64,000 nt of DNA from Microbispora sp. H13382 (lineage in GTDB: Bacteria; Actinomycetota; Actinomycetes; Streptosporangiales; Streptosporangiaceae): contig NZ_JABBXA010000024.1 of assembly GCF_014161445.1 (NCBI RefSeq), positions 62,001 to 126,000 of the forward strand, given 5' to 3'. Position 1 is the first letter of the stretch. Each line of letters opens with the position of its first letter. A program made the position numbers and the translations under genes. The notes under the pieces are model-generated. The model saw only the letters and a program-made list of their open reading frames with translations, was not told the DNA's origin and made no database searches. Of this stretch, positions 39,487 through 52,374 are shown piece after piece.

Positions 39487-39604
39487 GATGCCTTCCTGAG
39501 TGATCTCTGACGCGCCAGACACTAGGAATCGCCTCTTTCACCGTGCTTTCAGGCCGCTTGCACCCCGTGCGGCTGATCATCCCTGGCCCAGTTGCTCCGC
39601 GTCG

Positions 39605-39618
39605 TATGCTTGCGGCCA
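39605..39618 (+). promoter_or_regulatory. Leaderless-type promoter of the first lacI gene
   Basis: TATGCT (39605-39610) is followed by 7 bp and the ATG at 39618, without a ribosome site. The second lacI gene has TATAGT at exactly the same distance from its ATG. Confidence 0.55.
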
Positions 39619-40610
39619 TGACGCGACGGCTTGCGGAGGTTGCGAAGAAGGTCGGGGTCAGCGAGGCCACGGTGAGTCGCGTCCTCAACGGCAAGGCCGG
39701 GGTCTCCGAGGCCACCCGGGAGGCCGTTCTCACGGCTCTCGACGTGCTCGGGTACGAGCGGCCCACGCAGTTGCGCGGTGAGCGCGCCCGGCTGGTCGGG
39801 CTCGTCCTGCCCGAGCTGCAAAACCCCATCTTCCCGGCGTTCGCCGAGGTTGTCGGCGGGGCGCTGGCCCAGCAGGGGTTCACTCCGGTGCTGTGCACGC
39901 GTACGGTCGGCGGGATCTCCGAGGCCGACTACGTGGACCTGCTGTTGCAGCAGCAGGTGTCCGGCGTGGTGTTCGCCGGGGGGCTCTACACGCAGAACGG
40001 CGTCGTCCACGAGCACTACGTGCGGCTGGTCGAGCGGCGGCTGCCCACCGTGCTGGTCAACGCGGCCGCCGATCACTGGGACTTCCCCCGCGTCTCCTGC
40101 GACGACACGATCGCGGTGGAGCAGGCGCTCGGCCACCTGCGCGCGCTCGGTCACCAGCGGATCGGTCTCGTCGTCGGTCCCGCCGACCACATGCCGTCCG
40201 TTCGGAAGCTGGAGGCGTTCCGCGCCGCGGGCGGCGAGCTGGTCGAGCACACCATGCACTCGCTGGAGGGCGGCCACGCGGCGGCGCTGAAGCTCGTGCG
40301 GCAGGACGTCACCGGCATCATCTGCGGCAGCGACCCGCTGGCCCTCGGGGCCATCCGCGCGGCGCGGCGGGCCGGCAGACGCGTGCCTGCGGACGTGTCC
40401 GTCGTCGGGTACGACGACTCCGCGCTCATGACCTGCGTGGACCCGCCGCTGACGACGGTGCGCCAGCCGATCGAGGCGATGGGCAGGGCCGCGGTGGAGC
40501 TGCTGGTCAGCCAGATCGAGGGCGCCGCCGTCGCGACGGGCGAGCTGCTGTTCGAGCCGGAGCTGGTCGTGCGCTCCTCCACCGGCCGCGTCGGCGTCCC
40601 CGTCACCTGA
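39618..40610 (+). CDS. LacI family transcriptional regulator (copy 1)
   Basis: LacI/GalR regulator of 330 residues. The helix-turn-helix RLAEVAKKVGVSEATVSRVL is at 3-22 and the hinge region RPTQLRGERARLVGLVLPEL follows at about 48-67; the remainder is a periplasmic-binding-type sugar domain ending DPPLTTVRQPIEAMGRAAVELL. It is very similar to the second lacI at 43.8 kb, with identical recognition helices, so both probably bind the same operator. Between them lies the first GH87 gene on the opposite strand. Inducer is presumably an alpha-glucan oligosaccharide. Translation is probably leaderless. Confidence 0.94.
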   Translation: MTRRLAEVAKKVGVSEATVSRVLNGKAGVSEATREAVLTALDVLGYERPTQLRGERARLVGLVLPELQNPIFPAFAEVVGGALAQQGFTPVLCTRTVGGISEADYVDLLLQQQVSGVVFAGGLYTQNGVVHEHYVRLVERRLPTVLVNAAADHWDFPRVSCDDTIAVEQALGHLRALGHQRIGLVVGPADHMPSVRKLEAFRAAGGELVEHTMHSLEGGHAAALKLVRQDVTGIICGSDPLALGAIRAARRAGRRVPADVSVVGYDDSALMTCVDPPLTTVRQPIEAMGRAAVELLVSQIEGAAVATGELLFEPELVVRSSTGRVGVPVT

Positions 40611-40631
40611 GCACGTCATGCTGTGTGCGGA

Positions 40632-40666
40632 GCCCGGAGGAGGAGGCGTCCACTCCTCCTCCGGGC
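40632..40666. terminator. Bidirectional stem-loop between lacI and GH87 genes
   Basis: GCCCGGAGGAGG (40632-40643) pairs with CCTCCTCCGGGC (40655-40666); two more pairs extend it to 14 bp. It lies between two convergent genes. Confidence 0.65.
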
Positions 40667-40679
40667 GTCCCGTTCCGGG

Positions 40680-43514
40680 TTACGAGGCGTACGCCTCGAA
40701 CTCGGAGATCTGCGCGGCCGGCCAGCCGGTGTTACCGGTGACGTTGAGCCGCAGGTAGCGCCGGGCGCCGGCGGGCACGGTGACCGTGACGGTGTTCCCG
40801 GTGGCCGGGTCGAACGTGCGGCCCGCCGAGGCGGACAACGTGGTGTAGTTCGTGCCGTCCGTGCTGCCGAGGACCGCCAGTGTCTGGGTGCGGGTGGCCC
40901 AGGCCGCGCTCGGCGGCAGCCTGAGCACCACCCTGCCGACCGTGACGGACGCGCCGAGATCGACGGTCAGGGTCTGGGGGAAGGCGTTGTTCGCCGACTC
41001 CCAGTAGGTCGAGGCGTTTCCGTCGGCGGCGTTGCCCGCGACGTACACGTCGGCGTGACTGCTCGCACTGATCGCCCTGCCGGCGGCGAGGTTCCCCGTG
41101 GGCAGCGGCCCGGGGGAAGCGCTGGGCGACGGTGACGGGCTCGGGGCGCCTCCGGTGCCGTACACCTCGAAGGCCGACAACTGCCCGGCCGGCCAGCCGG
41201 TGTTGCCGGTGACCGTCACCCGGACATGGCGGATGTTCGCGCCGGTGAACGGGATGGTCACCGCGTTCCCGGTGGCGGGGTCGAACGTGCGGCCCGCCGA
41301 GGCGGACAAGGTGGTGTAGTTCGTGCCGTCCGTGCTGCCGAGGACCGCCAGTGTCTGGGTGCGGGTGGCCCAGGCCGCGCTCGGCGGCAGCCTGAGCACC
41401 ACGCGCTGCACCGGCGTCACCGCGCACAGGTCCACCGTGATCGACTGGGGGAAGGCGTTGTTCGCCGACTCCCAGTAGGTGCCCGCGTCGCCGTCGACCG
41501 CGTTGGCCGCGACGTACGACTGGGTGCTGCTCGTCGCCGTGGCCGCCTTGCCCCGGGCGAGGTCGCCGCTGCCGGGAGCGCACGCCGTCGGGCTGGGCGA
41601 AGGCGAGGGGGAGGTGGACGGCGAGGCGGACGGCGACGGGCTCGGGCTCGGGTCGCCGCCCTCGTAGATGTAGTTCGGCGCGGGCCACTGGCCGGTGCAG
41701 ACGGTGGAGCCCAGGCTCCAGCCGGAGTTGCCGCTGCCGTACGTGGGGGCGAAGCCGGTGCCGACGCAGTTGTGGATGGCGACACCCGCGCCGATGTGGG
41801 CCGCCCTGACGTTGGTGAAGGTCGCCTTCGCCGCCGCCTGCGCCTGGATCATGTACGTCCCGGTGCCGTCGACGTTCACGTTCGAGAAGTTGACGGTCTG
41901 GGTGCTGCCCTCGATGAACTGGATGGCCTCGTAGGAGCTGTCGACCATGTCGGTGTCGGTCACGTTGATCGTCGCGTTGACCGGCTCGTTGAGGCCGTCG
42001 AACCAGATCGCGCCGACGCCGAAGTTCCAGTTGTAGTCGCTGTTGCCGGCTCGGATGAGCGTGTTGCGGGCGACCGTGATCGTGCCGGCCACCGCGGTGC
42101 CCTGGCCGGAGTGCACCCCGGGGTAGCGGTTGGCGACGTGGATGCCGCCGCCGTTGGTGACCGTGTCGCTCACCACGTTGTCGGTGATCTTTATGTCCCG
42201 GCCGCCGTACGTGACGATGTTGTTGGCCAGGACCGGCGCCACCACGGTGTTGGACGTGAACGAGTTGTTCACGTTGGCCATCCGGTCGGGCCACATCGCC
42301 AGGCCGTCGTCGCCGGTGTTGCGGACGAACGTGTTGGTCACCGTGGAGTTCGTGACGCCGGTGTGGAAGTTCACGCCGTCGGCCGTCTGGTCGAGGATGC
42401 GGCTGTTCTTCAACGTGAAGCCGTCCATCGGGCCGTCCATCCAGGCCCCGACCTTGGTGTGCTGGATCCACAGGTTGTCGACCACCGAATCGGTCATCGC
42501 GCCGCCGACGGCGTTGACCTGGTCGTCGTCCACGCGTTCGGTGATGTCGCCGATGATCGCGAAGTCCCGCAGGGTGACGCCCCGGCTCGGGCCGCCCGCC
42601 TCGTGCGGTCTGATCCCGCCGGTGTACCCGCCGCCGCTGACGTACTTGCCGTAGACGCCGACGGCGCGGTTGCGCTGGGTGGGATGGCGGCCGGTGAGAA
42701 CGCTGTGCCACGGCCCGGCGCCGCGCAGCGTCACGCCGTCCACGACCACGTGGTCCCACAGGGTGTAGGTGCCGGACGGGATGTAGACCTCCTTGCCCTG
42801 GGCCCGGCCGGCGTCGACGGCGGCCTGGAAGGCGGCGGTGGAGTCGCCCGTGCCGTTGCGGTCGGCGCCGAAGTCGTCGACCGACAGCGACCCGGCGGGC
42901 CGGGGGATCGCGTCGGGCGCGAGCTCGAAGTCGGCGAGGTCCACGACGAACCAGGGCGCGACCGCGGTGGAGGCCACCTGGATCCTGACCTTGGTGCCCG
43001 CCGCGAGCGTGGACCCGAACATCGTGCGGGTCTCGTCGTAGAAGTGGTGCGGCTTGTCGCCGGGCGTGTTCCCGAACGGGTAGCCGCCGTAGTACCAGCC
43101 GTACCGGGAGGTGAACTGCAGGTCCTTGAGCTTGGTCCCGTTGATCCTCAGGTCGACCGGTGCCGTGATGCCCGTTCCCGCCGCGTTGTCCGGCACGCTG
43201 TAGCGCACGGTCATCGCGTTGGCGGGCTTGGGCAGGGTGAACTCGACGTACTCGCCCGGCGCGTCGAGGCGCACGGCCCGGCGGCCCGAGGCCTCGGACG
43301 GCAGGCGGGTGTAGACGCGGTCCGGGCCGATCTGCTCGCCGTTGGTCACGGCGGCCTCGGCCTCGATCTCCGTGAACGGCACGCTCGCGCCTCTTCCCGG
43401 CACGGAGAACGGCGACGGTGACGTCGCGGCCGACGACGTGCCGGGGAACGCCACCACGCCGCCCACGGCGATCAGCGCCCCCGCCACCGCGACGGCGGCT
43501 CCGGATCTTGTCAT
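40680..43514 (-). CDS. Secreted modular alpha-1,3-glucanase (GH87-type) with two F5/8 type C domains
   Basis: Exported protein of 944 residues. Signal peptide about 1-30; CBM35-like sugar-binding domain about 50-180; right-handed beta-helix catalytic domain about 190-600; Pro/Ser linker about 618-644; discoidin (F5/8 type C, CBM32-like) domain to about 788; second linker; second discoidin domain to the end. In the beta-helix D379 (TADGVNFH) and D402-D403 (NTGDD) reproduce the 23-residue spacing of the three catalytic Asp known for GH87 glucanases, which cut alpha-1,3-glucan internally. ATG 43514 has GAAAGGA upstream. Palindromes before the gene suit LacI control. Confidence 0.87.
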   Translation of the reverse strand: MTRSGAAVAVAGALIAVGGVVAFPGTSSAATSPSPFSVPGRGASVPFTEIEAEAAVTNGEQIGPDRVYTRLPSEASGRRAVRLDAPGEYVEFTLPKPANAMTVRYSVPDNAAGTGITAPVDLRINGTKLKDLQFTSRYGWYYGGYPFGNTPGDKPHHFYDETRTMFGSTLAAGTKVRIQVASTAVAPWFVVDLADFELAPDAIPRPAGSLSVDDFGADRNGTGDSTAAFQAAVDAGRAQGKEVYIPSGTYTLWDHVVVDGVTLRGAGPWHSVLTGRHPTQRNRAVGVYGKYVSGGGYTGGIRPHEAGGPSRGVTLRDFAIIGDITERVDDDQVNAVGGAMTDSVVDNLWIQHTKVGAWMDGPMDGFTLKNSRILDQTADGVNFHTGVTNSTVTNTFVRNTGDDGLAMWPDRMANVNNSFTSNTVVAPVLANNIVTYGGRDIKITDNVVSDTVTNGGGIHVANRYPGVHSGQGTAVAGTITVARNTLIRAGNSDYNWNFGVGAIWFDGLNEPVNATINVTDTDMVDSSYEAIQFIEGSTQTVNFSNVNVDGTGTYMIQAQAAAKATFTNVRAAHIGAGVAIHNCVGTGFAPTYGSGNSGWSLGSTVCTGQWPAPNYIYEGGDPSPSPSPSASPSTSPSPSPSPTACAPGSGDLARGKAATATSSTQSYVAANAVDGDAGTYWESANNAFPQSITVDLCAVTPVQRVVLRLPPSAAWATRTQTLAVLGSTDGTNYTTLSASAGRTFDPATGNAVTIPFTGANIRHVRVTVTGNTGWPAGQLSAFEVYGTGGAPSPSPSPSASPGPLPTGNLAAGRAISASSHADVYVAGNAADGNASTYWESANNAFPQTLTVDLGASVTVGRVVLRLPPSAAWATRTQTLAVLGSTDGTNYTTLSASAGRTFDPATGNTVTVTVPAGARRYLRLNVTGNTGWPAAQISEFEAYAS
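40801..40931. repeat. Near-identical domain repeat, copy in second discoidin domain
   Basis: About 131 bp match 41272-41402 with only a few mismatches, at an offset of 471 bp. Both encode the same core strand region (WATRTQTLAVLGSTDGTNY) of the two discoidin domains. Confidence 0.85.
41272..41402. repeat. Near-identical domain repeat, copy in first discoidin domain
   Basis: Partner of 40801-40931. The rest of the two domains is clearly diverged, so the near-identical core suggests recent gene conversion rather than recent whole-domain duplication. Confidence 0.85.
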
Positions 43515-43622
43515 GAGGATCCTTTCTGCATGCGAGATCCGGGAGATGCGGCGTGGACGCTGGAACCGCCACACCTCCGAAGAAGGTGAGTGGCCACACG
43601 ATAAGTTGACAGACATCCTTCT

Positions 43623-43647
43623 GCAATATTGCGACGAGAAGTCGCAA
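43623..43647. promoter_or_regulatory. Overlapping palindromes upstream of the GH87 gene
   Basis: GCAATATTGC (43623-43632) is a perfect palindrome overlapping TTGCGAC-GAGAA-GTCGCAA (43629-43647), a perfect 7-bp inverted repeat. They lie 110-135 bp upstream of the GH87 start and about 160 bp before the second lacI, in the divergent promoter region. They are candidate LacI operators. Confidence 0.5.
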
Positions 43648-43757
43648 GATAACCCGCATGTTACGTCGGGCCACCGCTCCAGGAGATCAGCACTCCACCG
43701 AGTCGGGGGAGACCCCCACAACCATGGGCCGAGGCGAAAGATGCCGACAGCCTGCAT

Positions 43758-43806
43758 GCGCAAGCGGATGAAAACATTTGCGCTCGCTGTCGTATAGTTG
43801 CGTCCA
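43758..43806 (+). promoter_or_regulatory. Promoter of the second lacI gene with half-sites
   Basis: GCGCAA (43758-43763) and TTGCGC (43778-43783) form an inverted pair, followed by TATAGT (43793-43798) and, 7 bp later, the ATG at 43806. No ribosome site is present, so a leaderless transcript with autoregulation is likely. Confidence 0.5.
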
Positions 43807-44816
43807 TGACACGACGGCTTGCGGAAGTAGCCAAGAAGGTGGGCGTGAGCGAGGCGACCGTGAGTCGCGTGCTCAACGGCAAGCCGGGGGTCTCCGACGC
43901 CACCAGAGAGGCCGTGCTCACCGCGCTCGACGTGCTGGGATACGAGCGGCCCACCCAGCTGCGCGGCGACCGCGGCCGCCTCGTCGGCCTGGTCCTCCCC
44001 GAGCTGCAGAACCCGATCTTCCCGGCGTTCGCCGAGGTCGTGGGAGGCGCGCTGGCGCAGCAGGGGTTCACGTCCGTGCTGTGCACCCGGACCGTGGGTG
44101 GCGTCTCCGAGTCCGACTACGTGGACCTGCTCCTCCAGCAGCACGTGTCCGGCATGGTCTTCGCCGGCGGTCTGTACGCCCAGGGGGACGCCTCCCACGG
44201 CCATTACCGCAGGGTCCTCGAACGCAAGCTGCCGACCGTGCTCGTCAACGCGGCGGTCGAGTATCTCGGGTTCCCGCAGGTGTCGTGCGACGACGTGGCC
44301 GCGGCGGAGATCGCGCTCGCCCATCTCATGGCGCTCGGGCACCGTCACGTCGCGATGCTGCTCGGCCCGCCCGACCACGTGCCGTCCCAGCGCAAGCTCG
44401 CCGCCTTCCGCGCGTACGCCGCCGCCAACGGCCTCGAACTGGACCCCGATCACGTCGAGCACACGATGTTCTCGCTGGAAGGCGGGCACGCCGCCGCCAC
44501 GCGCATGATCGCCAGGGGTGTGACCGGCATCATCTGCGCCAGCGACGTGCTCGCCCTCGGCGCCATCAGGGCGGCGCGCCGGGCGGGACTGTCGGTGCCG
44601 GAGGACGTCTCCGTCATCGGCTACGACGACTCCGCGCTGATGAACTGCGTGGACCCGCCGCTGACCACGGTCCGCCAGCCCATCGACGCGATGGGCCGGG
44701 CTGCCGTCGAACTGCTGGTGGCCCAGATCGACGCCGCCGTCGTCCCCGGTGACGAACTATTGTTCGAACCCGAACTGGTGGTCCGCGCCTCCACGGCCCC
44801 CGCCCCCCGCTCCTAG
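43806..44816 (+). CDS. LacI family transcriptional regulator (copy 2)
   Basis: LacI/GalR regulator of 336 residues, a close paralogue of the copy at 39.6 kb: helix-turn-helix and hinge are nearly identical (VSEATVSRVLNGKPGVSDAT; RPTQLRGDRGRLVGLVLPEL) while the sugar-binding domain is more diverged, with a 6-residue insertion YAAANG near the middle. It is divergent from the GH87 gene and the promoter-proximal regulator of that gene. It probably responds to the same class of oligosaccharide. The two paralogues may compete for one operator or sense different ligands. Confidence 0.94.
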   Translation: MTRRLAEVAKKVGVSEATVSRVLNGKPGVSDATREAVLTALDVLGYERPTQLRGDRGRLVGLVLPELQNPIFPAFAEVVGGALAQQGFTSVLCTRTVGGVSESDYVDLLLQQHVSGMVFAGGLYAQGDASHGHYRRVLERKLPTVLVNAAVEYLGFPQVSCDDVAAAEIALAHLMALGHRHVAMLLGPPDHVPSQRKLAAFRAYAAANGLELDPDHVEHTMFSLEGGHAAATRMIARGVTGIICASDVLALGAIRAARRAGLSVPEDVSVIGYDDSALMNCVDPPLTTVRQPIDAMGRAAVELLVAQIDAAVVPGDELLFEPELVVRASTAPAPRS

Positions 44817-44865
44817 CGGGCTTGTCCGCGAACCTCGGCTGAGGCGGTTATCAACAGGTGCGCGG

Positions 44866-44936
44866 AGCGCCGGGGCGGGCGGGTGCGGAGGCCGGCGTAA
44901 GACCGTGCCCTGTACCACCGCGCCCGCGATGGCCGC
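44866..44936 (-). repeat. 71-bp inverted repeat, right copy
   Basis: Reverse complement of 39016-39086 with one mismatch. It lies 50 bp after the second lacI stop. The enclosed 5.8-kb segment carries the lipoprotein, both lacI genes and the modular GH87 gene. Confidence 0.85.
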
Positions 44937-45363
44937 TCCCGAGGCTCACCGGAGCGCAACTATCACGGCCGGCCGGAGCACCCGCCCGCTTTGAGCGCGT
45001 CCAATGGCAAGAAGCCAACCCCCGGCTCTCAAGCGTCCAGCGGCAACGAGCAAACCCCGGCTCTCAAGCGTCCAGCGGCAACGAGCAAACCCCAGGCACT
45101 CAGGCGTCCAGCGGCAACGAGCAAACCCCAGGCACTCAGGCGTCCAGCGGCAACGAGCCGTAGGAGGTTCTCGGGCGATGTCCTTGCTCCGAGACGCCGT
45201 AGGCCCTGCACTGTCACTTTTTTGCACAGTTACTGCCGCTCTATTGCTCAGTCCTGCATGCCTCTGTATGTTTCTCGCAATCGAGCGGATCGGGGCGCTC
45301 CAAGTCGGCCCCGAGCCGCGTGCTTCGACGGGTCGTGGTGCGCGGTTCCAGAAGGGAACGAGG
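44937..45363. promoter_or_regulatory. Promoter region of the ABC importer operon
   Basis: It holds a 35/36-bp tandem repeat (44998-45158) and then an A/T-rich segment (about 45205-45275) with TTTTTTGCACAGTTACTGC, the likeliest promoter/operator zone for the binding-protein gene. No gene with good start signals is seen; frames through the repeat give low-complexity peptide only. Confidence 0.5.
44998..45158. repeat. Minisatellite, 35/36-bp period, five units
   Basis: Units begin at 44998, 45034, 45069, 45105 and 45141. The last four share CGTCCAGCGGCAACGAGC exactly; the first is degenerate. The period alternates 36, 35, 36, 36, so no reading frame is kept, which argues against coding. Confidence 0.85.
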
Positions 45364-46743
45364 ATGAAATCCCACAAGCTCTCGATACTGCTGGTCTCGG
45401 GACTTGCCATTGCAGCGGCCGCGGCGTGCGGCACCGACAACAGCGGCGGCAGCGGTGACAAGGCGAGTGCGGCGCCCGAGGGCGCCGGGCCGGTGTCGAT
45501 CTCGGTGAACTGCGAGCCGCCGAAGACGAACAAGGCGGAGCGCGCGACGTTCGAGGAGGACCTGGCGGCCTTCCAGCAGCTGAACCCCACTATCAAGGTC
45601 GCGAAGGTCACCGACGCGTTCCCCTGCTACGACCCGCGCACCTTCGAGCCGAAGCTGGCCAGCGGCGAGCTCGAGACGGTCTTCTACGTCAACTTCCCCA
45701 ACGTGGGCCGCCTCATCGAGAGCGGACAGGCGGCCGACCTCACGCCGTACGTCAACGAGATCAAGACGTTCCAGGACTACAACAGCTCGATCGACCTGTT
45801 CAAGAAGGACGGCAAGGTCTACGGCCTGCCGACCGACGGCTACGGCATGGGCCTCGTCTACAACAAGGAGGTCTTCACCAAGGCCGGTCTCGACCCGAGC
45901 AGCCCGCCCAAGACGTGGGCGGAGGTGCAGGCCGCCGCGAAGAAGATCGCCGGGCTCGGTCCCGGTTACGTCGGGTACGGCGAGTACAGCGGCAACAACG
46001 TCGGGGGCTGGCACTTCACCGCCTCCGTCTACGGTCGCGGCGGGTCGGTCATCACCGACGACGGCAAGAAGGCCGCCTTCAACACCCCCGAGGGCAAGGC
46101 CGTGCTGGAGAACCTGCACCAGATGCGGTGGGCCGACAACAGCATGGGCTCCCAGCTGTACATCGACTGGCCGGCCCTGATGAAGGCCATGGCCGGCGGC
46201 AAGATGGGCATGATGCTGGGCGCGCCCGACGTGCTGATCTCGCTGCGCAACGACTTCGGCGGCAAGTTCGAGAACTACGCCATCACCGCCCAGCCCGAGG
46301 CCAAGGCCCTGTTCAACGGCGGCGCCGGTTACATGATCAACCCGAAGGCCACGCCGGAGCAGATCAAGGCCGGTCTCAAGTGGATCGAGTACAAGTTCCT
46401 CACCCCCGGCAAGGGCCAGTTCGACTACGCGCGGGCCAAGAGCGCGGACCTGACCGTCGGCCAGCCCTACCCCGACCTTTACCGCCCGGACACGCCGTCC
46501 GGCCAGGCCGTCGACGAGCTGCGCAAGGCGAACGCCAACATCGACCTCGCGCAGTTCGCCGGATGGGTGGAGGGCTCCAAGGGCATCCCGCCGAAGGCCG
46601 AGCCGGGGCCGTACGCCCAGGAGATCTACAAGATCCTCGACACTCCGATGTCGGCCGTGCTGACCCGCAAGGACGCGAACATCGACCAGCTCCTGGCCGA
46701 TGCCGAGTCGAAGGTCAACTCCCTGCTGGCCTCGAAGGGCTGA
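45364..46743 (+). CDS. ABC sugar transporter, substrate-binding lipoprotein (CUT1)
   Basis: Extracellular solute-binding protein family 1 lipoprotein of 459 residues. Signal peptide MKSHKLSILLVSGLAIAAAA with lipidated Cys22, then a two-lobed sugar-binding domain (PTDGYGMGLVYNKEVFTKAG at about 158; WPALMKAMAGGKMGMMLGAP at about 277). It would catch the oligosaccharides made outside by the GH87 enzymes. ATG 45364 has a GAACGAGG ribosome site. It is the first gene of the importer-glucosidase-GH87 operon; a stem-loop after its stop may raise its level over the permeases. Confidence 0.94.
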   Translation: MKSHKLSILLVSGLAIAAAAACGTDNSGGSGDKASAAPEGAGPVSISVNCEPPKTNKAERATFEEDLAAFQQLNPTIKVAKVTDAFPCYDPRTFEPKLASGELETVFYVNFPNVGRLIESGQAADLTPYVNEIKTFQDYNSSIDLFKKDGKVYGLPTDGYGMGLVYNKEVFTKAGLDPSSPPKTWAEVQAAAKKIAGLGPGYVGYGEYSGNNVGGWHFTASVYGRGGSVITDDGKKAAFNTPEGKAVLENLHQMRWADNSMGSQLYIDWPALMKAMAGGKMGMMLGAPDVLISLRNDFGGKFENYAITAQPEAKALFNGGAGYMINPKATPEQIKAGLKWIEYKFLTPGKGQFDYARAKSADLTVGQPYPDLYRPDTPSGQAVDELRKANANIDLAQFAGWVEGSKGIPPKAEPGPYAQEIYKILDTPMSAVLTRKDANIDQLLADAESKVNSLLASKG

Positions 46744-46756
46744 CCGCCCTGATAAT

Positions 46757-46803
46757 CCGGGGCGCCGCCCGTGGCCGTGACCCACGCGCGGCCGGCGCCC
46801 CGG
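46757..46803 (+). promoter_or_regulatory. Intercistronic stem-loop after the binding-protein gene
   Basis: CCGGGGCGCCG (46757-46767) pairs perfectly with CGGCGCCCCGG (46793-46803). Stems at this place in ABC operons often protect the upstream mRNA or partly terminate, giving excess binding protein. Confidence 0.55.
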
Positions 46804-46861
46804 CGAACCGTGCAGGGCGAATCGAGTGCAGGGCAATCACGTCGAGATCGGATCCACAACG

Positions 46862-47785
46862 ATGACCACAGCGAGCATCCCGGCAGCGAGCGGCAGACGG
46901 CGGCAGCCGACGAAACTGCGGCGCGCCGTGCGGCGCAACGTGACCGCCTACGGATTCCTGTGCGGCGCTCTGATCTGTTTCGCGTTCTTCTCCTGGTATC
47001 CGATGGTCCGCGAGGTCATCCTCAGCTTCCAGAGGACCAACTTCGTGGACCCGCCCCGATGGGTGGGGCTGGAGAACTTCCGTACTGTGATCAATGACCC
47101 CGCCTTCGGGCCGGCCTGGGTCAACACCGCGGTGTTCACCCTGCTCGCCCTGCTGTGCGGCTACGGGATCCCGTTCGTCACCGCGATCGTGCTCAACGAG
47201 CTGCGGCACGCGAGGGCGTACCTGCGCTTCGTGGTCTACCTGCCGGTGATGCTGCCGCCCGCGGTGAGCGTCCTGCTGTTCCAGTGGTTCTACAACCCCG
47301 ACTACGGGCTGTTCAACCAGGCTCTCGGCCTGGTCCACCTGCCGGGCCTGCAGTGGCTCAACTCGACGAGTACCGCGCTGATCTCGCTGGTCATCGTCTC
47401 CACCTGGATGAACATGGGCAGCGGCACCCTGATCTACCTCGCCGCCCTGCAGACCATCCCGAGCGAGCTGTACGAGGCCGCCGAGCTCGACGGCGCCGGC
47501 CTGTTCAAGCGGATCTGGCACGTCACGATCCCGCAGACCAAGCTGATCCTGCTGGTGATGCTGCTTCTTCAGATCGTGGCGACCATGCAGGTCTTCATCG
47601 AGCCCTACCTGCTCACCGGCGGCGGCCCCGAGAACGCCACGGTCAGCGTCGTCTACCTCATGTACCAGTACGCCTTCAACTTCGGCAATCTCAACGCCGG
47701 CAACGCGCTCGGCCTGATGCTCATGATCGTTCTCATGGTGTTCTCCGCGATCTACCTGCGCGTCTCGCGCGACAACACGGTGTGA
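46862..47785 (+). CDS. ABC sugar transporter permease (MalF type)
   Basis: Inner-membrane permease of 307 residues with six main hydrophobic segments and the BPD_transp_1 signature EAA loop YEAAELDGAGLFKRIWHVTIPQ at about residue 206, the site that docks the ATPase. ATG 46862 is the start after a leader with an in-frame upstream ATG at 46826. It forms the translocation pore with the next gene product. No ATPase is encoded in this operon; a shared MsiK-type ATPase elsewhere is usual for such systems in actinomycetes. Confidence 0.93.
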   Translation: MTTASIPAASGRRRQPTKLRRAVRRNVTAYGFLCGALICFAFFSWYPMVREVILSFQRTNFVDPPRWVGLENFRTVINDPAFGPAWVNTAVFTLLALLCGYGIPFVTAIVLNELRHARAYLRFVVYLPVMLPPAVSVLLFQWFYNPDYGLFNQALGLVHLPGLQWLNSTSTALISLVIVSTWMNMGSGTLIYLAALQTIPSELYEAAELDGAGLFKRIWHVTIPQTKLILLVMLLLQIVATMQVFIEPYLLTGGGPENATVSVVYLMYQYAFNFGNLNAGNALGLMLMIVLMVFSAIYLRVSRDNTV

Positions 47786-47798
47786 GGGGGGAGCGACC

Positions 47799-48788
47799 AT
47801 GCCAGACACGACGACCGACGTCACCGTGATGCCCGACAGCCCGACCGGAACGCCCGCCGCCCCTGCCCGGAACGAGCGCCGTGGGCGGCGGCGGCCCCGC
47901 AAGCCGTTCGGCACGCAGTTCCGCACCGCCGTCTCGCCGCACCAGCTCAACACGACCCGCGGCCGGATCATCTACTGGATCGTGCTGGCGATCGTGGTGG
48001 TGAGCTTCACCGCCGCGTTCGTCTTCCCGCTCTACTGGATGGTCACCGGTGCGATGAAGTCCACCGAGGAGCTCAACTCCATCCCGCCGACCTTCCTGCC
48101 GTCGCACTTCTCGCTCGACGGCTACCTGGAGGCGTGGGATCTGCTGGACCTCGGCACGCTGCTCGGCAACACGGCCCTCTACGCCGGCGGCGCCTGGCTG
48201 CTGACACTCGCGGTGGACGTCTCGGCGGCCTACGCGCTGTCGAAGCTCCGCCCGGCGCTCGGCAAGGTCGTGCTGGCGCTGATGCTGTCGACGCTGATGA
48301 TCCCGCCCATGGTCATCATGCTCCCGGCGTACCTGACGGTGAAGGAAGTGCCGATCTTCGGCTGGAACCTGCTCAACACGCCGTGGGCGATCTGGCTGCC
48401 GGCCGCGGCCAACGGCTTCAACGTCTTCCTGCTCAAGCGCTTCTTCGACTCGATCCCCAGGGAACTGCTCGAAGCCGCCGAGATCGACGGCGCGTCGCCG
48501 GGCCGCATCCTGTGGTCGGTGGTGATACCGATCTCCCGGCCCATCCTCGGGGTGGTCTCGATCCTCACCGTCGTCAACGTCTGGCGCGACTTCGTCTGGC
48601 CCCTCCTGGTCCTGCCGGACAGCGACAAGATGTCGGTGAGCATCGGCATCGCCTCGCTCTCCTCGCAGATGCCGCAGAACGTGCTGGTCGCCTCCCTGGT
48701 GATCGCGAGCATCCCGACCATCGTCGTCTTCTTCCTGTTCCAGCGGCACATCATGGCCGGTCTCACCGCCGGCAGCCTCAAGGGCTGA
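47799..48788 (+). CDS. ABC sugar transporter permease (MalG type)
   Basis: Permease of 329 residues: a cytoplasmic Arg/Pro-rich N-terminus of about 60 residues, then six transmembrane segments and the EAA loop LEAAEIDGASPGRILWSVVIPISRP at about 225. It starts 13 bp after the MalF-type stop behind a GGGGGGAG ribosome site. It should dimerise with the MalF-type permease and use a remote ATPase. Confidence 0.93.
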   Translation: MPDTTTDVTVMPDSPTGTPAAPARNERRGRRRPRKPFGTQFRTAVSPHQLNTTRGRIIYWIVLAIVVVSFTAAFVFPLYWMVTGAMKSTEELNSIPPTFLPSHFSLDGYLEAWDLLDLGTLLGNTALYAGGAWLLTLAVDVSAAYALSKLRPALGKVVLALMLSTLMIPPMVIMLPAYLTVKEVPIFGWNLLNTPWAIWLPAAANGFNVFLLKRFFDSIPRELLEAAEIDGASPGRILWSVVIPISRPILGVVSILTVVNVWRDFVWPLLVLPDSDKMSVSIGIASLSSQMPQNVLVASLVIASIPTIVVFFLFQRHIMAGLTAGSLKG

Positions 48789-48835
48789 ACGACCCCACCC
48801 CTGCCGCCGTCACCCCGTAAGGAGTTGTATTCAGC

Positions 48836-50404
48836 ATGCCCGGCAACACCTCGACCCACGATTGGTGGCGCGGGGCCGCGATCTACCAGGTCTACCTGCG
48901 CAGCTTCGCCGACGGGAACGGCGACGGGACGGGCGACCTGGCGGGGCTGCGGTCGCGCCTGCCGTACCTGGCGGACCTCGGCGCCGACGCCATCTGGCTG
49001 AATCCGTGGTATCCCTCGCCCATGGCCGACGGCGGTTACGACGTCGCCGACTATCGCAGCATCGAGCCGGTCTTCGGCACCCTCGCCGAGGCGGAGAAGC
49101 TGATCGAGGAAGCCCACGGCCTGGGCATCCGTACGATCGTGGACGTCGTCCCCAACCACGCGTCCGACCAGCACGCCTGGTTCCAGGAGGCCCTGGCGGC
49201 CGGTCCCGGTTCGGAGGCCCGGGAGCGGTTCTGGTTCCGCCCCGGCGTCGGCGACGGCCCGCCGAACGGCTGGCGGTCGATCTTCGGCGGCCCGGCCTGG
49301 ACGCGGGTGCCGGACGGCGAGTGGTACCTCCACCTGTTCGCCCCCGAGCAGCCCGACTTCAACTGGAACAACCCGGCCGTACGCCAGGAGTTCCTGGACG
49401 TGCTGCGGTTCTGGTTCGACCGTGGCGTGGACGGCGTCCGCATCGACTCGGCGGCCGTCCTCGTCAAGGACCTCGACAGCGTGGAGGAGTCGTACACCGA
49501 CCACGACGGCGTCCACGAGATCTACCGCGAGTGGCGGCGGGTGTCCGACTCCTACGGCGGGCGGATCCTCATCGGGGAGGTGTGGCTGCCCGACCAGGAG
49601 CGGTTCGCGAACTACCTGCGCCCGGACGAGCTCCACACGGCCTTCAACTTCGACTTCCTGTCGAGCGCGTGGGAGCCGGCCGCGCTGCGCCGCAGCATCG
49701 ACCTGACCCTCGCCACGCACGTGCCGATCGGCGCACCCGCGACCTGGGTGCTGTCCAACCACGACGTCGCCCGTCCCGTCACCCGGTACGGCCGGGCCGT
49801 CACGTCCTGGGACAACGCCGAACGCCGGGACGGCATGCCGTCCGACCTGGAGCTCGGCCGGCGTCGGGCGAGGGCGGCGGCGCTGCTGGCGATGGCCCTG
49901 CCCGGCAGCGTCTACGTCTACCAGGGGGAGGAGCTCGGCCTGAACGAGGTCGAGGACATCCCCGAGGAGCTCATCGACGACCCGATGTGGGAGCGTTCCG
50001 GCCACACCGTCCGCGGTCGTGATGGTTGCCGGGTGCCGCTGCCGTGGTCGGGGGAGGAGCCGCCGTTCGGCTACAGCACGGGCGAGCCCTGGCTGCCCCA
50101 GCCGGCGGGCTGGCGCGACCTCACGGTCGATGCCCAGCAGGCCGACCCGGACTCCATGCTCTGCCTCTACCGCTCGGCCCTGCGCCTGCGGCGCGAGCTG
50201 CTCGGCGACGGCACGCTGACCTGGCTGCCGACCGGAAACGACGTGATCGCGTTCCGGCGCGACTCCGGGCTGGTCTGCGTGGTGAACCTCGGCGCCGAGA
50301 CTGTTCCGTTCCCCGTCCAGGGCTCGGCCCTGCTGGCCAGCGGCCCGATCGACGGAGACCTGCTCCCGTCCGACACCGCGGTCTGGATCCTGGAGGCCCG
50401 ATGA
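48836..50404 (+). CDS. GH13 family alpha-glucosidase (cytoplasmic)
   Basis: Alpha-amylase-superfamily glycoside hydrolase of 522 residues without a signal peptide. The catalytic triad is D204 (VDGVRIDSA), E248 (LIGEVW) and D310 (LSNHD); region I VDVVPNHAS is at 102-110. Length and motifs fit exo-acting alpha-glucosidases of the GH13 oligosaccharide group rather than endo-amylases. With the importer and GH87 enzymes it would split imported alpha-1,3-linked oligosaccharides such as nigerose to glucose. AAGGAG precedes ATG 48836 and the stop overlaps the next gene as ATGA. Confidence 0.93.
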   Translation: MPGNTSTHDWWRGAAIYQVYLRSFADGNGDGTGDLAGLRSRLPYLADLGADAIWLNPWYPSPMADGGYDVADYRSIEPVFGTLAEAEKLIEEAHGLGIRTIVDVVPNHASDQHAWFQEALAAGPGSEARERFWFRPGVGDGPPNGWRSIFGGPAWTRVPDGEWYLHLFAPEQPDFNWNNPAVRQEFLDVLRFWFDRGVDGVRIDSAAVLVKDLDSVEESYTDHDGVHEIYREWRRVSDSYGGRILIGEVWLPDQERFANYLRPDELHTAFNFDFLSSAWEPAALRRSIDLTLATHVPIGAPATWVLSNHDVARPVTRYGRAVTSWDNAERRDGMPSDLELGRRRARAAALLAMALPGSVYVYQGEELGLNEVEDIPEELIDDPMWERSGHTVRGRDGCRVPLPWSGEEPPFGYSTGEPWLPQPAGWRDLTVDAQQADPDSMLCLYRSALRLRRELLGDGTLTWLPTGNDVIAFRRDSGLVCVVNLGAETVPFPVQGSALLASGPIDGDLLPSDTAVWILEAR

Positions 50405-52374
50405 GAATTCTGCTGGCGGCCGTCGCCGTCACCGGGCTCGTGGCAGTGCAGGCCCCGGCGTCCGCCTCGGCGAAGGCGCCCGTCGTGACCCGGGCCGCCC
50501 TCGACCCGGCTCTCGTCGCCGGGCGCGGGGCCGACGTCGACTTCGCCGAGCAGGAGGCGGAGAACGCCGCCACGAACGGGACGGTCATCGGCCCCGGCCG
50601 CGACGCGTACACGCTGCCGGCGGAGGCGTCGGGCCGTAAGGCGGTGCGGCTGACCCCCGGGCAGTACGTCGAGTTCACGCTGCCGAAGGCGGCCAACGCG
50701 ATCACGGTGCGCTACAGCATCCCGGACGCTCCCGGGGGCGGCGGCATCACCGCGCCGCTCGACGTCGCGGTGAACGGCCGCAAGCAGGCCACCATGACCC
50801 TCACGTCGCAGTACGCCTGGCTCTACAACCAGTATCCGTTCTCCAACGACCCGGGCGCCGGGCTGCTGCACCCCGACTGGTGGATCACCGAGTGCTCCTG
50901 CGTGCCGGCCGCCACCACTCCCACACCGGAGATCGCCAAGCCGTTCCGCCCGAACCACTTCTACGACGAGCAGCGCCTCCTGCTCGGCCGTACGTACCGG
51001 GCGGGTGACACCGTGCGGCTGACGGTCCCGGCGGGGAGCAACGCCGAATGGACGGTCGTCGACCTGCTCGACTCGCACCTCGTCGGCCCGCCGCGGGTGG
51101 AGGTCGTCGCCGCGAACGTGCTGGCCTTCGGCGCCGACCCCACCGGCAGGCGCGACTCCGCCGGGGCGATCGACAAGGCGATCGCCTTCGCCAAGCGCAC
51201 GCGCCTGAAGGTCTACATCCCGCCGGGCACCTACCAGGTGAACCGTCACATCCTCGTGGACAACGTGACGATCACCGGCGCCGGCAGCTGGTACACGATC
51301 ATCAAGGGCCGTCAGACCGATCTGGGCGCCCCGGCCCCGGACGGCTCGGTGCACACCGGAGTCGGGTTCTACGGCAAGGACGCCGCGGCCGGGGGCAGCC
51401 GCAACGTCCACCTGTCCGGCTTCGCCATCGAGGGCGACGTACGGGAACGCATCGACACCGACCAGGTCAACGGCGTCGGCGGCGCGATGAGCGACTCGAC
51501 CATCGACGGGCTCCACATCCGCCACACCAAGGTCGGCATGTGGTTCGACGGCCCGATGCGGAACATCAAGATCACCAATAACGTGATCGTCGACCAGATC
51601 GCGGACGGGCTTAACTTCCACACCGGCGTGACCGACTCCGTCGTGTCGGGCAACCTCTTCCGCAACACCGGCGACGACGCCCTCGCCCTCTGGTCCGACA
51701 GGACCGCCGACGCGCGCAACACGATCGACCACAACACCGTGCAGACGCCCGTGCTGGCCAACGGCATCGCGATCTACGGCGGCACGGACAACACGGTCGC
51801 GAACAATCTGATCGCGGACCCGATCAGGGAGGGCAGCGCCATCCAGATCGGCTCCCGGTTCGGCGCCGAGCCGTTCACCGGCAGGCTCCGCATCACCGGC
51901 AACACCACCGTCCGCGCCGGCACCTTCGAGCTGAACTGGAGGATCGGCCTGGGGGCCGTCTGGTTCTACGCCCTGGAGAAGGACATCGACGCCGACATCG
52001 AGGTCAGCGGCGACCACTATCTGGACAGCACGTACAACGCGATCATGCTCGTCAGTGAGTGGTCGGTGAAGGACCTGTACGCGATCCCGAAGGTCCGGTT
52101 CAGGGACATCCGGGTCGACGGCACGGGCACCTCCGTGGTCAGCGCCCGCGTGAAGGGCTCGGCGTCCTTCCAGAACGTGGACGCCCGCAACGTCGGCGCG
52201 GTCGGGGTCAACAACTGCGGCGCCTTCAACTTCCCGCCCACCGGTTCCGAGTTCTCCCTGACCGACCTCGGCGGCAACGACGGCGGCTGGCTCGCTCCCT
52301 GGATGCTGCCCAACACCATCACCTGCGACGACCGCCCCCCAGTCGTCCCCCCACCCCCGCCGTCCCCGTGGTGA
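50401..52374 (+). CDS. Secreted GH87-type alpha-1,3-glucanase, C-terminally shortened
   Basis: Exported protein of 657 residues, paralogue of the 944-residue enzyme. Signal peptide about 1-24 (MRILLAAVAVTGLVAVQAPA), CBM35-like domain about 38-185 and beta-helix domain about 195-640. D402 (IADGLNFH) and D425-D426 (NTGDD) keep the GH87 catalytic spacing. It ends abruptly in the linker PPVVPPPPPSPW with no binding domain after it, unlike its paralogue, suggesting loss of a C-terminal module. It overlaps the GH13 gene by ATGA, so this secreted enzyme and the cytoplasmic glucosidase are made from one mRNA. Confidence 0.87.
   Translation: MRILLAAVAVTGLVAVQAPASASAKAPVVTRAALDPALVAGRGADVDFAEQEAENAATNGTVIGPGRDAYTLPAEASGRKAVRLTPGQYVEFTLPKAANAITVRYSIPDAPGGGGITAPLDVAVNGRKQATMTLTSQYAWLYNQYPFSNDPGAGLLHPDWWITECSCVPAATTPTPEIAKPFRPNHFYDEQRLLLGRTYRAGDTVRLTVPAGSNAEWTVVDLLDSHLVGPPRVEVVAANVLAFGADPTGRRDSAGAIDKAIAFAKRTRLKVYIPPGTYQVNRHILVDNVTITGAGSWYTIIKGRQTDLGAPAPDGSVHTGVGFYGKDAAAGGSRNVHLSGFAIEGDVRERIDTDQVNGVGGAMSDSTIDGLHIRHTKVGMWFDGPMRNIKITNNVIVDQIADGLNFHTGVTDSVVSGNLFRNTGDDALALWSDRTADARNTIDHNTVQTPVLANGIAIYGGTDNTVANNLIADPIREGSAIQIGSRFGAEPFTGRLRITGNTTVRAGTFELNWRIGLGAVWFYALEKDIDADIEVSGDHYLDSTYNAIMLVSEWSVKDLYAIPKVRFRDIRVDGTGTSVVSARVKGSASFQNVDARNVGAVGVNNCGAFNFPPTGSEFSLTDLGGNDGGWLAPWMLPNTITCDDRPPVVPPPPPSPW

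Follow-up and report, generated by a model that had tools for sequence, protein, structure and literature searches.

The locus and its described relatives

It is well established biochemically that enzymes of glycoside hydrolase (GH) family 87 act on alpha-1,3-glucan, a polymer that is prominent in the walls of many fungi and in dental plaque. In Lachnoclostridium phytofermentans, the accessible text of PMC9061262 describes a cluster encoding a GH65 nigerose phosphorylase, a GH31_u1 enzyme, an ATP-binding cassette (ABC) transporter and LacI proteins, with a GH87 gene nearby. A putative mutan polysaccharide utilisation locus of Prevotella melaninogenica contains GH87, GH97 and GH99-like genes (PMC13421300), and the cyclic maltosyl-maltose (CMM) pathway of Arthrobacter globiformis, encoded by cmmA to cmmG, comprises a solute-binding protein (SBP), two permeases, the alpha-glucosidase CmmB, the hydrolase CmmF and the extracellular transferase CmmA (PMC7676653). 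Streptomyces isolates selected for their ability to grow on mutan or alternan have been characterised by counts of carbohydrate-active enzymes, in a report whose main text does not contain the word ‘transporter’ (PMC11475409). Here we describe a locus of eight genes (positions 39618–52374) in a stretch of 64,000 nucleotides from the genome of Microbispora sp. H13382 (hereafter, the window), which probably serves the degradation of alpha-1,3-glucan outside the cell and the uptake of the resulting fragments. Among the papers listed by our literature search, with several listings limited to the best-ranked few and subscription papers outside its scope, we recognised no description of such an actinomycete operon or of the way in which actinomycetes take up the products of alpha-1,3-glucan cleavage.

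Among the eight genes, only that of GH87-A is carried by the minus strand. GH87-A (944 aa; 40680–43514) and GH87-B (657 aa; 50401–52374, plus strand) both contain the N-terminal domain D1 and the beta-helix domain D2 of the family, with scores of 147.8 and 129.7 bits, respectively, for PF22815 and of 66.8 and 65.9 bits for PF22816 (cut-off of 27 bits for each model). The closest solved structure is for both copies the alpha-1,3-glucanase 7C7D of the PDB (E-values of 1.1e-115 for GH87-A, used without its first 12 residues, and of 1.3e-97 for GH87-B), which originates from Streptomyces thermodiastaticus (PMC11475409). The chain of 7C7D corresponds to the catalytic unit only, whereas GH87-A carries in addition two F5/8-type-C stretches (CBM32-like, PF00754) at its C-terminus. 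Each protein keeps three Asp residues with a spacing of 23 residues (D379, D402 and D403 in GH87-A; D402, D425 and D426 in GH87-B), at exactly the positions given in a preliminary description of the window. In alignments, these residues fall on the motifs ADG and GDD of the solved GH87 enzymes, and they are presumably catalytic, a role that we take from work on a Paenibacillus enzyme. As judged by eye, both proteins begin with a signal-peptide-like sequence. The GH87 identity given in that description is borne out for both by curated models and by solved relatives. From these relationships, GH87-A and GH87-B are predicted to be specific for alpha-1,3-glucan rather than for nigeran. A third GH87 gene is present in the same genome (8,709,848 bases in 70 contigs), on contig C14 (L271:7268–11278). 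Its product of about 1340 aa is of the Paenibacillus type, being nearest to the glucanase 6K0M (424 bits versus 155 bits for 7C7D), and includes a fibronectin-like match to chitinase A1.

Downstream of the regulatory genes, an operon encodes, in this order, the SBP, permease 1, permease 2, a GH13 alpha-glucosidase and, as its last gene, GH87-B. The SBP (459 aa; 45364–46743, plus strand; PF13416 and PF01547) has a lipobox at its N-terminus, recognised by eye, whose C22 is invariant in an alignment of 26 rows. Permease 1 (46862–47785, plus strand; MalF/UgpA-like) and permease 2 (47799–48788, plus strand; MalG/UgpE-like) both match PF00528 and contain the EAA loops EAAELDG and EAAEIDG, respectively; NCBIfam matches to UgpA and MalF for the former and to UgpE and MalG for the latter remain below cut-off. 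A lipoprotein SBP with two BPD_transp_1 permeases carrying EAA loops is the composition expected of a CUT1 importer. The preliminary description had the gene set right (an importer and a GH13 enzyme flanked by two GH87 enzymes, with two LacI proteins) and also the common direction of the operon, but the ATGA coupling that it proposed is limited to the 4-bp overlap between the GH13 and GH87-B genes, the other gaps being 118, 13 and 47 bp. Its term ‘self-contained’ was too strong, as none of the eight genes encodes the importer ATPase. The MalK/MsiK-type ATPases of CUT1 importers are often encoded elsewhere, and the genome contains, on contigs C34 and C18, three OB_MalK matches, two of them above cut-off, which are candidates for this function.

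The GH13 enzyme (48836–50404, plus strand; PF00128, 330.6 bits) is closest to CmmB (8YIE/8YIF), both by structure match and by sequence, with 49% identity. CmmB is called a GH13_30 enzyme in its PDB title, and the residues D204, E248 and D310, which we take to form the Asp-Glu-Asp triad, are kept in the Microbispora protein and invariant in an alignment of 24 rows. Neither a signal peptide nor a lipobox was seen at its N-terminus. AlphaFold2 models built on alignments of the window proteins with fetched orthologues (A1 with 26 rows for the SBP, A2 with 24 rows for GH13) reached mean values of the predicted local distance difference test of 88.3 and 78.8, respectively. The nearest folds to the SBP model are 5CI5, the CMM-binding protein 7BVT and the cycloalternan-binding protein 5F7V, at 20–21% identity, followed by the maltose-binding protein 8ART and the acarbose-binding protein GacH (3K01); the SBP sequence profile likewise ranks 5CI5 and 7BVT first. 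The 5F7V protein, Lmo0181 of Listeria, combines a similar fold with a ligand that contains alpha-1,3 bonds, although its identity is about 21% and this ligand is cyclic and alpha-1,3/1,6-linked. The 5CI5 protein corresponds to Tlet_1705, which is tabulated with alpha-D-tagatose (PMC7676653).

The locus thus shares with the Arthrobacter CMM system an SBP of a fold near that of CmmC, two permeases and a CmmB-like GH13 enzyme. As far as the available text on that pathway goes, a 6-alpha-maltosyltransferase of family GH13 acts outside the cell and a second GH13 enzyme, CmmF, opens the ring inside it, whereas the Microbispora locus has GH87 enzymes and a single GH13 gene among its eight genes, hence no pair of CmmA-type maltosyltransferase and CmmF-type hydrolase beside the importer. 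With its CmmB-like GH13 and its CMM-like SBP fold, it therefore resembles an importer and glucosidase set of CMM type in which GH87 replaces the transferase. With the Lachnoclostridium cluster, as described in the accessible text, it has in common the proximity of GH87, ABC transporter and LacI genes and of an intracellular enzyme for alpha-1,3-glucosides. The clostridial cluster uses a GH65 phosphorylase and a GH31 alpha-1,3-glucosidase, in contrast to one GH13_30-like enzyme and two GH87 enzymes in an actinomycete; GH65 phosphorylase and GH31_u1 are absent from the eight genes. The Prevotella locus likewise clusters GH87 with uptake genes of its own, but these are, in the available account, of the TonB/SusD type, a Bacteroidota design, instead of ABC components.

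We propose that GH87-A and GH87-B would cleave alpha-1,3-glucan from fungal walls or bacterial mutan outside the cell, GH87-A being possibly held to the polymer by its two discoidin-type modules and GH87-B being produced from the importer operon. The SBP and the two permeases, energised by an ATPase encoded elsewhere, would then import short alpha-1,3-linked gluco-oligosaccharides, a ligand class (nigero-oligosaccharides) suggested by the association with GH87, and the cytoplasmic GH13_30-like alpha-glucosidase would release glucose from them. One or both LacI paralogues may repress GH87-A, the operon and their own genes through a common 18-bp site until imported sugar releases them.

Distribution of the cassette and its association with GH87

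Among 297 genomes sampled from the family of the window's genome, PF22815 is present in 117, the SBP (E ≤ 1e-70) in 142 and GH87-B (E ≤ 1e-100) in 73. The SBP was detected in 114 of the 117 genomes with GH87 versus 28 of the 180 without it, the remaining combinations being GH87 only (3 genomes) and neither (152 genomes). The Fisher P of 1.5e-50 for this association overstates independence, since the genomes are related and kinship is uncorrected. Stretches of 11 to 20 kb containing the SBP gene were analysed from 100 of the 142 SBP genomes, 80 of them GH87-bearing. All 100 encode the SBP, both permeases and GH13, and 94 encode a LacI protein, a gene set that we call the cassette. A GH87 gene occurs in 59 of the 100 loci, corresponding to 59 of the 80 from GH87-bearing genomes; it belongs to one of three types (A, B and C) and lies at most 4.2 kb from the SBP gene. 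The neighbourhood search that the preliminary description had suggested therefore did place GH87 beside the importer binding protein, within about 4 kb. That description had further considered GH87 genes to be usually alone and their combination with an uptake system to be exceptional. With respect to the cassette this view did not stand, given the 59 loci and the clostridial cluster in the available text of PMC9061262; the combination is more widespread than supposed.

Type and position of these genes vary. In a tally in which one locus may count several times, GH87-C is divergent upstream in 23 cases and downstream in 5, GH87-A is divergent upstream in 21, upstream in the same direction in 4 and downstream once in each direction, and GH87-B is downstream in the operon direction in 20. 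GH87 genes flank the cassette on both sides in 16 of the 100 loci. The seven observed combinations of type, side and orientation suggest repeated recruitment of GH87 genes to the cassette. In three genomes of genera other than Microbispora and Planotetraspora (G179, G108 and G051), GH87-B is likewise located inside the operon. The importer and glucosidase set thus accompanies GH87 in many related genomes, so that it probably represents a standard route for alpha-1,3-glucan and not a one-off arrangement.

In a sample of 396 genomes from the phylum, 11 contain GH87 and 12 contain the SBP (E ≤ 1e-50); both are present together in 11 genomes, including that of the window. Leaving out the window's genome, the two genes are within about 4 kb of each other in 6 of 10 genomes, four of which have the order LacI-SBP-permeases-GH13-GH87. 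A third family is represented by two genomes with GH13 ahead of the cassette and GH87 elsewhere and by one with the cassette and no GH87. In these three loci (L280, L281 and L282), the order is LacI-GH13-SBP-permeases, with identities of 29–34% for the SBP and 61–62% for GH13; the LacI gene of L282 is on the opposite strand and its product is 30% identical.

To place the cassettes without GH87, a quick-method SBP tree was built from 112 rows of BLAST-hit segments (one from the window, 100 from the 142 SBP genomes of the family and 11 others), in which one row without GH87 match (L282, from G639) carried the label ‘genome’ instead of ‘none’. GH87-free cassettes are dispersed over this tree, with at least 14 changes against a shuffled mean of 18.6, a value as low being reached in 1 of 500 shuffles. 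They are thus somewhat clustered but cannot be attributed to one GH87-free clade of the SBP. In one Microbispora genome without GH87 match (G178, locus L104), LacI-1, LacI-2 and GH13 are 88–94% identical to their window counterparts, the permeases 75–78% and the SBP 53%. The importer segment is replaced or diverged there, where both GH87 genes are missing, and the importer may change its ligand upon GH87 loss. In three GH87-free loci of one genus (L176, L178 and L185, from G228, G234 and G240), the cassette is located between genes for a 2-isopropylmalate synthase and a thermolysin-type protease.

Regulators and candidate operators

The two regulators of the locus, LacI-1 (330 aa; 39618–40610, plus strand) and LacI-2 (336 aa; 43806–44816, plus strand), both match PF00356 and PF13377 and are paralogues with 77% identity. 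A palindrome search supplied the sites from which an 18-bp motif, WGTCGNNWTNTTGCR, was seeded by eye; its training set consisted of 33 non-redundant regions upstream of SBP genes. When all positions on both strands of the window were ranked, the best one was a candidate operator upstream of the SBP operon (45212–45229, plus strand). It kept this rank after retraining on 31 of the 33 regions, with the window and one close locus left out, the retrained motif being not wholly independent as it started from the first, by-eye-seeded model. The second and third best positions are candidate operators upstream of GH87-A (43619–43636, minus strand) and ending at the start codon of LacI-2 (43788–43805, plus strand). 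Rank 5 (43732) also falls in the stretch between the GH87-A and LacI-2 genes, a weaker candidate just before the LacI-1 start codon (39600–39617, plus strand) has rank 9, and ranks 4, 6, 7 and 8 are elsewhere. The LacI proteins are predicted to bind these candidate operators.

All 33 SBP upstream regions pass the 99% level of shuffled sequences, as expected for the training set; this contrast is inflated by shared ancestry, since the shuffles keep base composition only. The same threshold is exceeded by 28 of 51 regions upstream of LacI-2 genes. For the third GH87 gene, the best place of the motif in the surrounding 20 kb is just upstream (L271:7020–7040, 10.7 bits). The palindrome GCAAWWTTGC of the first motif search is mismatch-free in only 3 of the 33 SBP upstream regions, and the whole-genome pattern YGCAANNTTGCR was of no use, with 5 places versus 4 in the reversed control. 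When a search of the regions upstream of SBP genes was started at random, it settled on a different block, TCTATATGTTTCTCGCAA, that the other genes do not share.

Two further observations concern these intergenic regions. The region from LacI-2 to the SBP promoter contains, at 44997–45158, a tandem repeat with a 36-bp unit (4.5 copies, 92% matches). When 284 loci were searched for an exact match of 26 bases, no copy of the unit came up outside the window's own genome (L031). Ten cassette-distant GH87-B genes (L073–L077, L079, L082, L084, L085 and L088), with no GH13 in their flanks of roughly 1.5 kb, have a common upstream block recognised by eye, CTTGTGG ... ACTGTCACCTCACCC, which suggests a different regulator for them.

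Weighing the interpretations

Several results weigh against the function and regulation that we propose for the locus. CmmB, the closest relative of the GH13 enzyme, works in an alpha-1,4/alpha-1,6 pathway (PMC7676653), a relationship that counts against the cleavage of alpha-1,3 bonds that we predict for GH13. The SBP ligand cannot be read from the fold, at about 20% identity and with maltose, acarbose and tagatose binders close by. The operator threshold is passed by only 2 of 6 non-redundant regions upstream of GH87-A and 2 of 11 upstream of GH87-B. No cassette SBP lies within the analysed stretch in 69 of the best 80 of 360 loci related to GH87-B (51 of the 60 with stretches of at least 20 kb), and the 11 that contain it (9 of 60) are all from Microbispora or Planotetraspora. 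The GH87-B subtype is therefore usually placed apart, and for it the earlier idea of solitary GH87 genes did stand. Finally, 28 of the 142 family genomes with the SBP are without GH87, so that the cassette can serve without it. GH71, the other alpha-1,3-glucanase family, was considered as a substitute and discarded, being found in only 4 of these 28 genomes. The 61 genomes compared further comprised 28 with neither gene, 3 that have GH87 only and 2 Microbispora, of which 0, 1 and 0, respectively, contain GH71; these numbers are too small to carry weight.

Some of these points favour a cassette for alpha-glucosides in general (of the maltose, isomaltose or panose type), resembling Cmm or Agl importers, beside which GH87 genes settle because their products are already taken up. 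Besides the 28 genomes without GH87, the sequence and fold relatives of the cassette proteins include alpha-1,4/1,6 systems. Furthermore, no common glucanase-like or other polymer-degrading neighbour was found at 20 GH87-free cassettes, where up to two open reading frames (ORFs) per side, picked by length and third-position GC, were scanned against Pfam (78 ORFs, E ≤ 1e-8), following a visual inspection of 15 loci of which 12 were GH87-free; the sole glycoside hydrolase was a GH8 with CBM35/6 (L140), along with a sugar dehydrogenase bearing a carbohydrate-binding module (L137). Such an importer is, however, difficult to reconcile with the presence of the SBP in 114 of 117 GH87 genomes of the family and 11 of 11 of the phylum sample, which would be hard to expect of a generic maltose importer, and with the seven GH87 arrangements, and we regard it as improbable. 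The substrate could instead be nigeran (mycodextran) or a mixed alpha-1,3/alpha-1,4-glucan of moulds, with at least one GH87 enzyme being a mycodextranase and GH13 cutting the alpha-1,4 bond of nigerosyl-glucose. GH87 comprises mycodextranases as well as mutanases, and one of the mycodextranases is from a Streptomyces according to the available text of the sources (PMC13421300 and PMC11475409). A CmmB-like GH13 suits alpha-1,4 bonds more easily, and the two GH87 copies, unequal with a mutual identity of 42%, could divide the two linkages between them. Both copies are nevertheless nearest to a solved alpha-1,3-glucanase, in a comparison that is one-sided as it contains no mycodextranase sequence, and nigeran appears an unlikely substrate. 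That the beta-helix proteins are other polysaccharide lyases or hydrolases, or inactive, is very improbable: generic beta-helix and PF12708 matches are present, but in the profile comparison proposed by the preliminary description the GH87 models outscore the generic PF12708 along almost the entire catalytic unit, and both proteins keep the three Asp residues.

Degradation of alpha-1,3-glucan coupled to fragment uptake thus remains the likely function of the Microbispora locus. A broader proposal, which we make tentatively and with slightly more doubt than confidence, is that the LacI-SBP-permease-GH13_30 cassette is a general alpha-1,3-glucan module of actinomycetes, whose SBP and GH13 would have shifted from CMM or maltose to nigero-oligosaccharides and which would have repeatedly recruited GH87 subtypes by proximity or by the same operator, as possibly for the third GH87. 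If true, this would reveal an uptake route new to the literature searched, together with a GH13_30 enzyme dedicated to alpha-1,3 bonds. The family-wide, GH87-linked cassette offers an uptake protein, a glucosidase and a regulator that can be tested, and it may mark the genomes of organisms that are likely to degrade fungal necromass and mutan.

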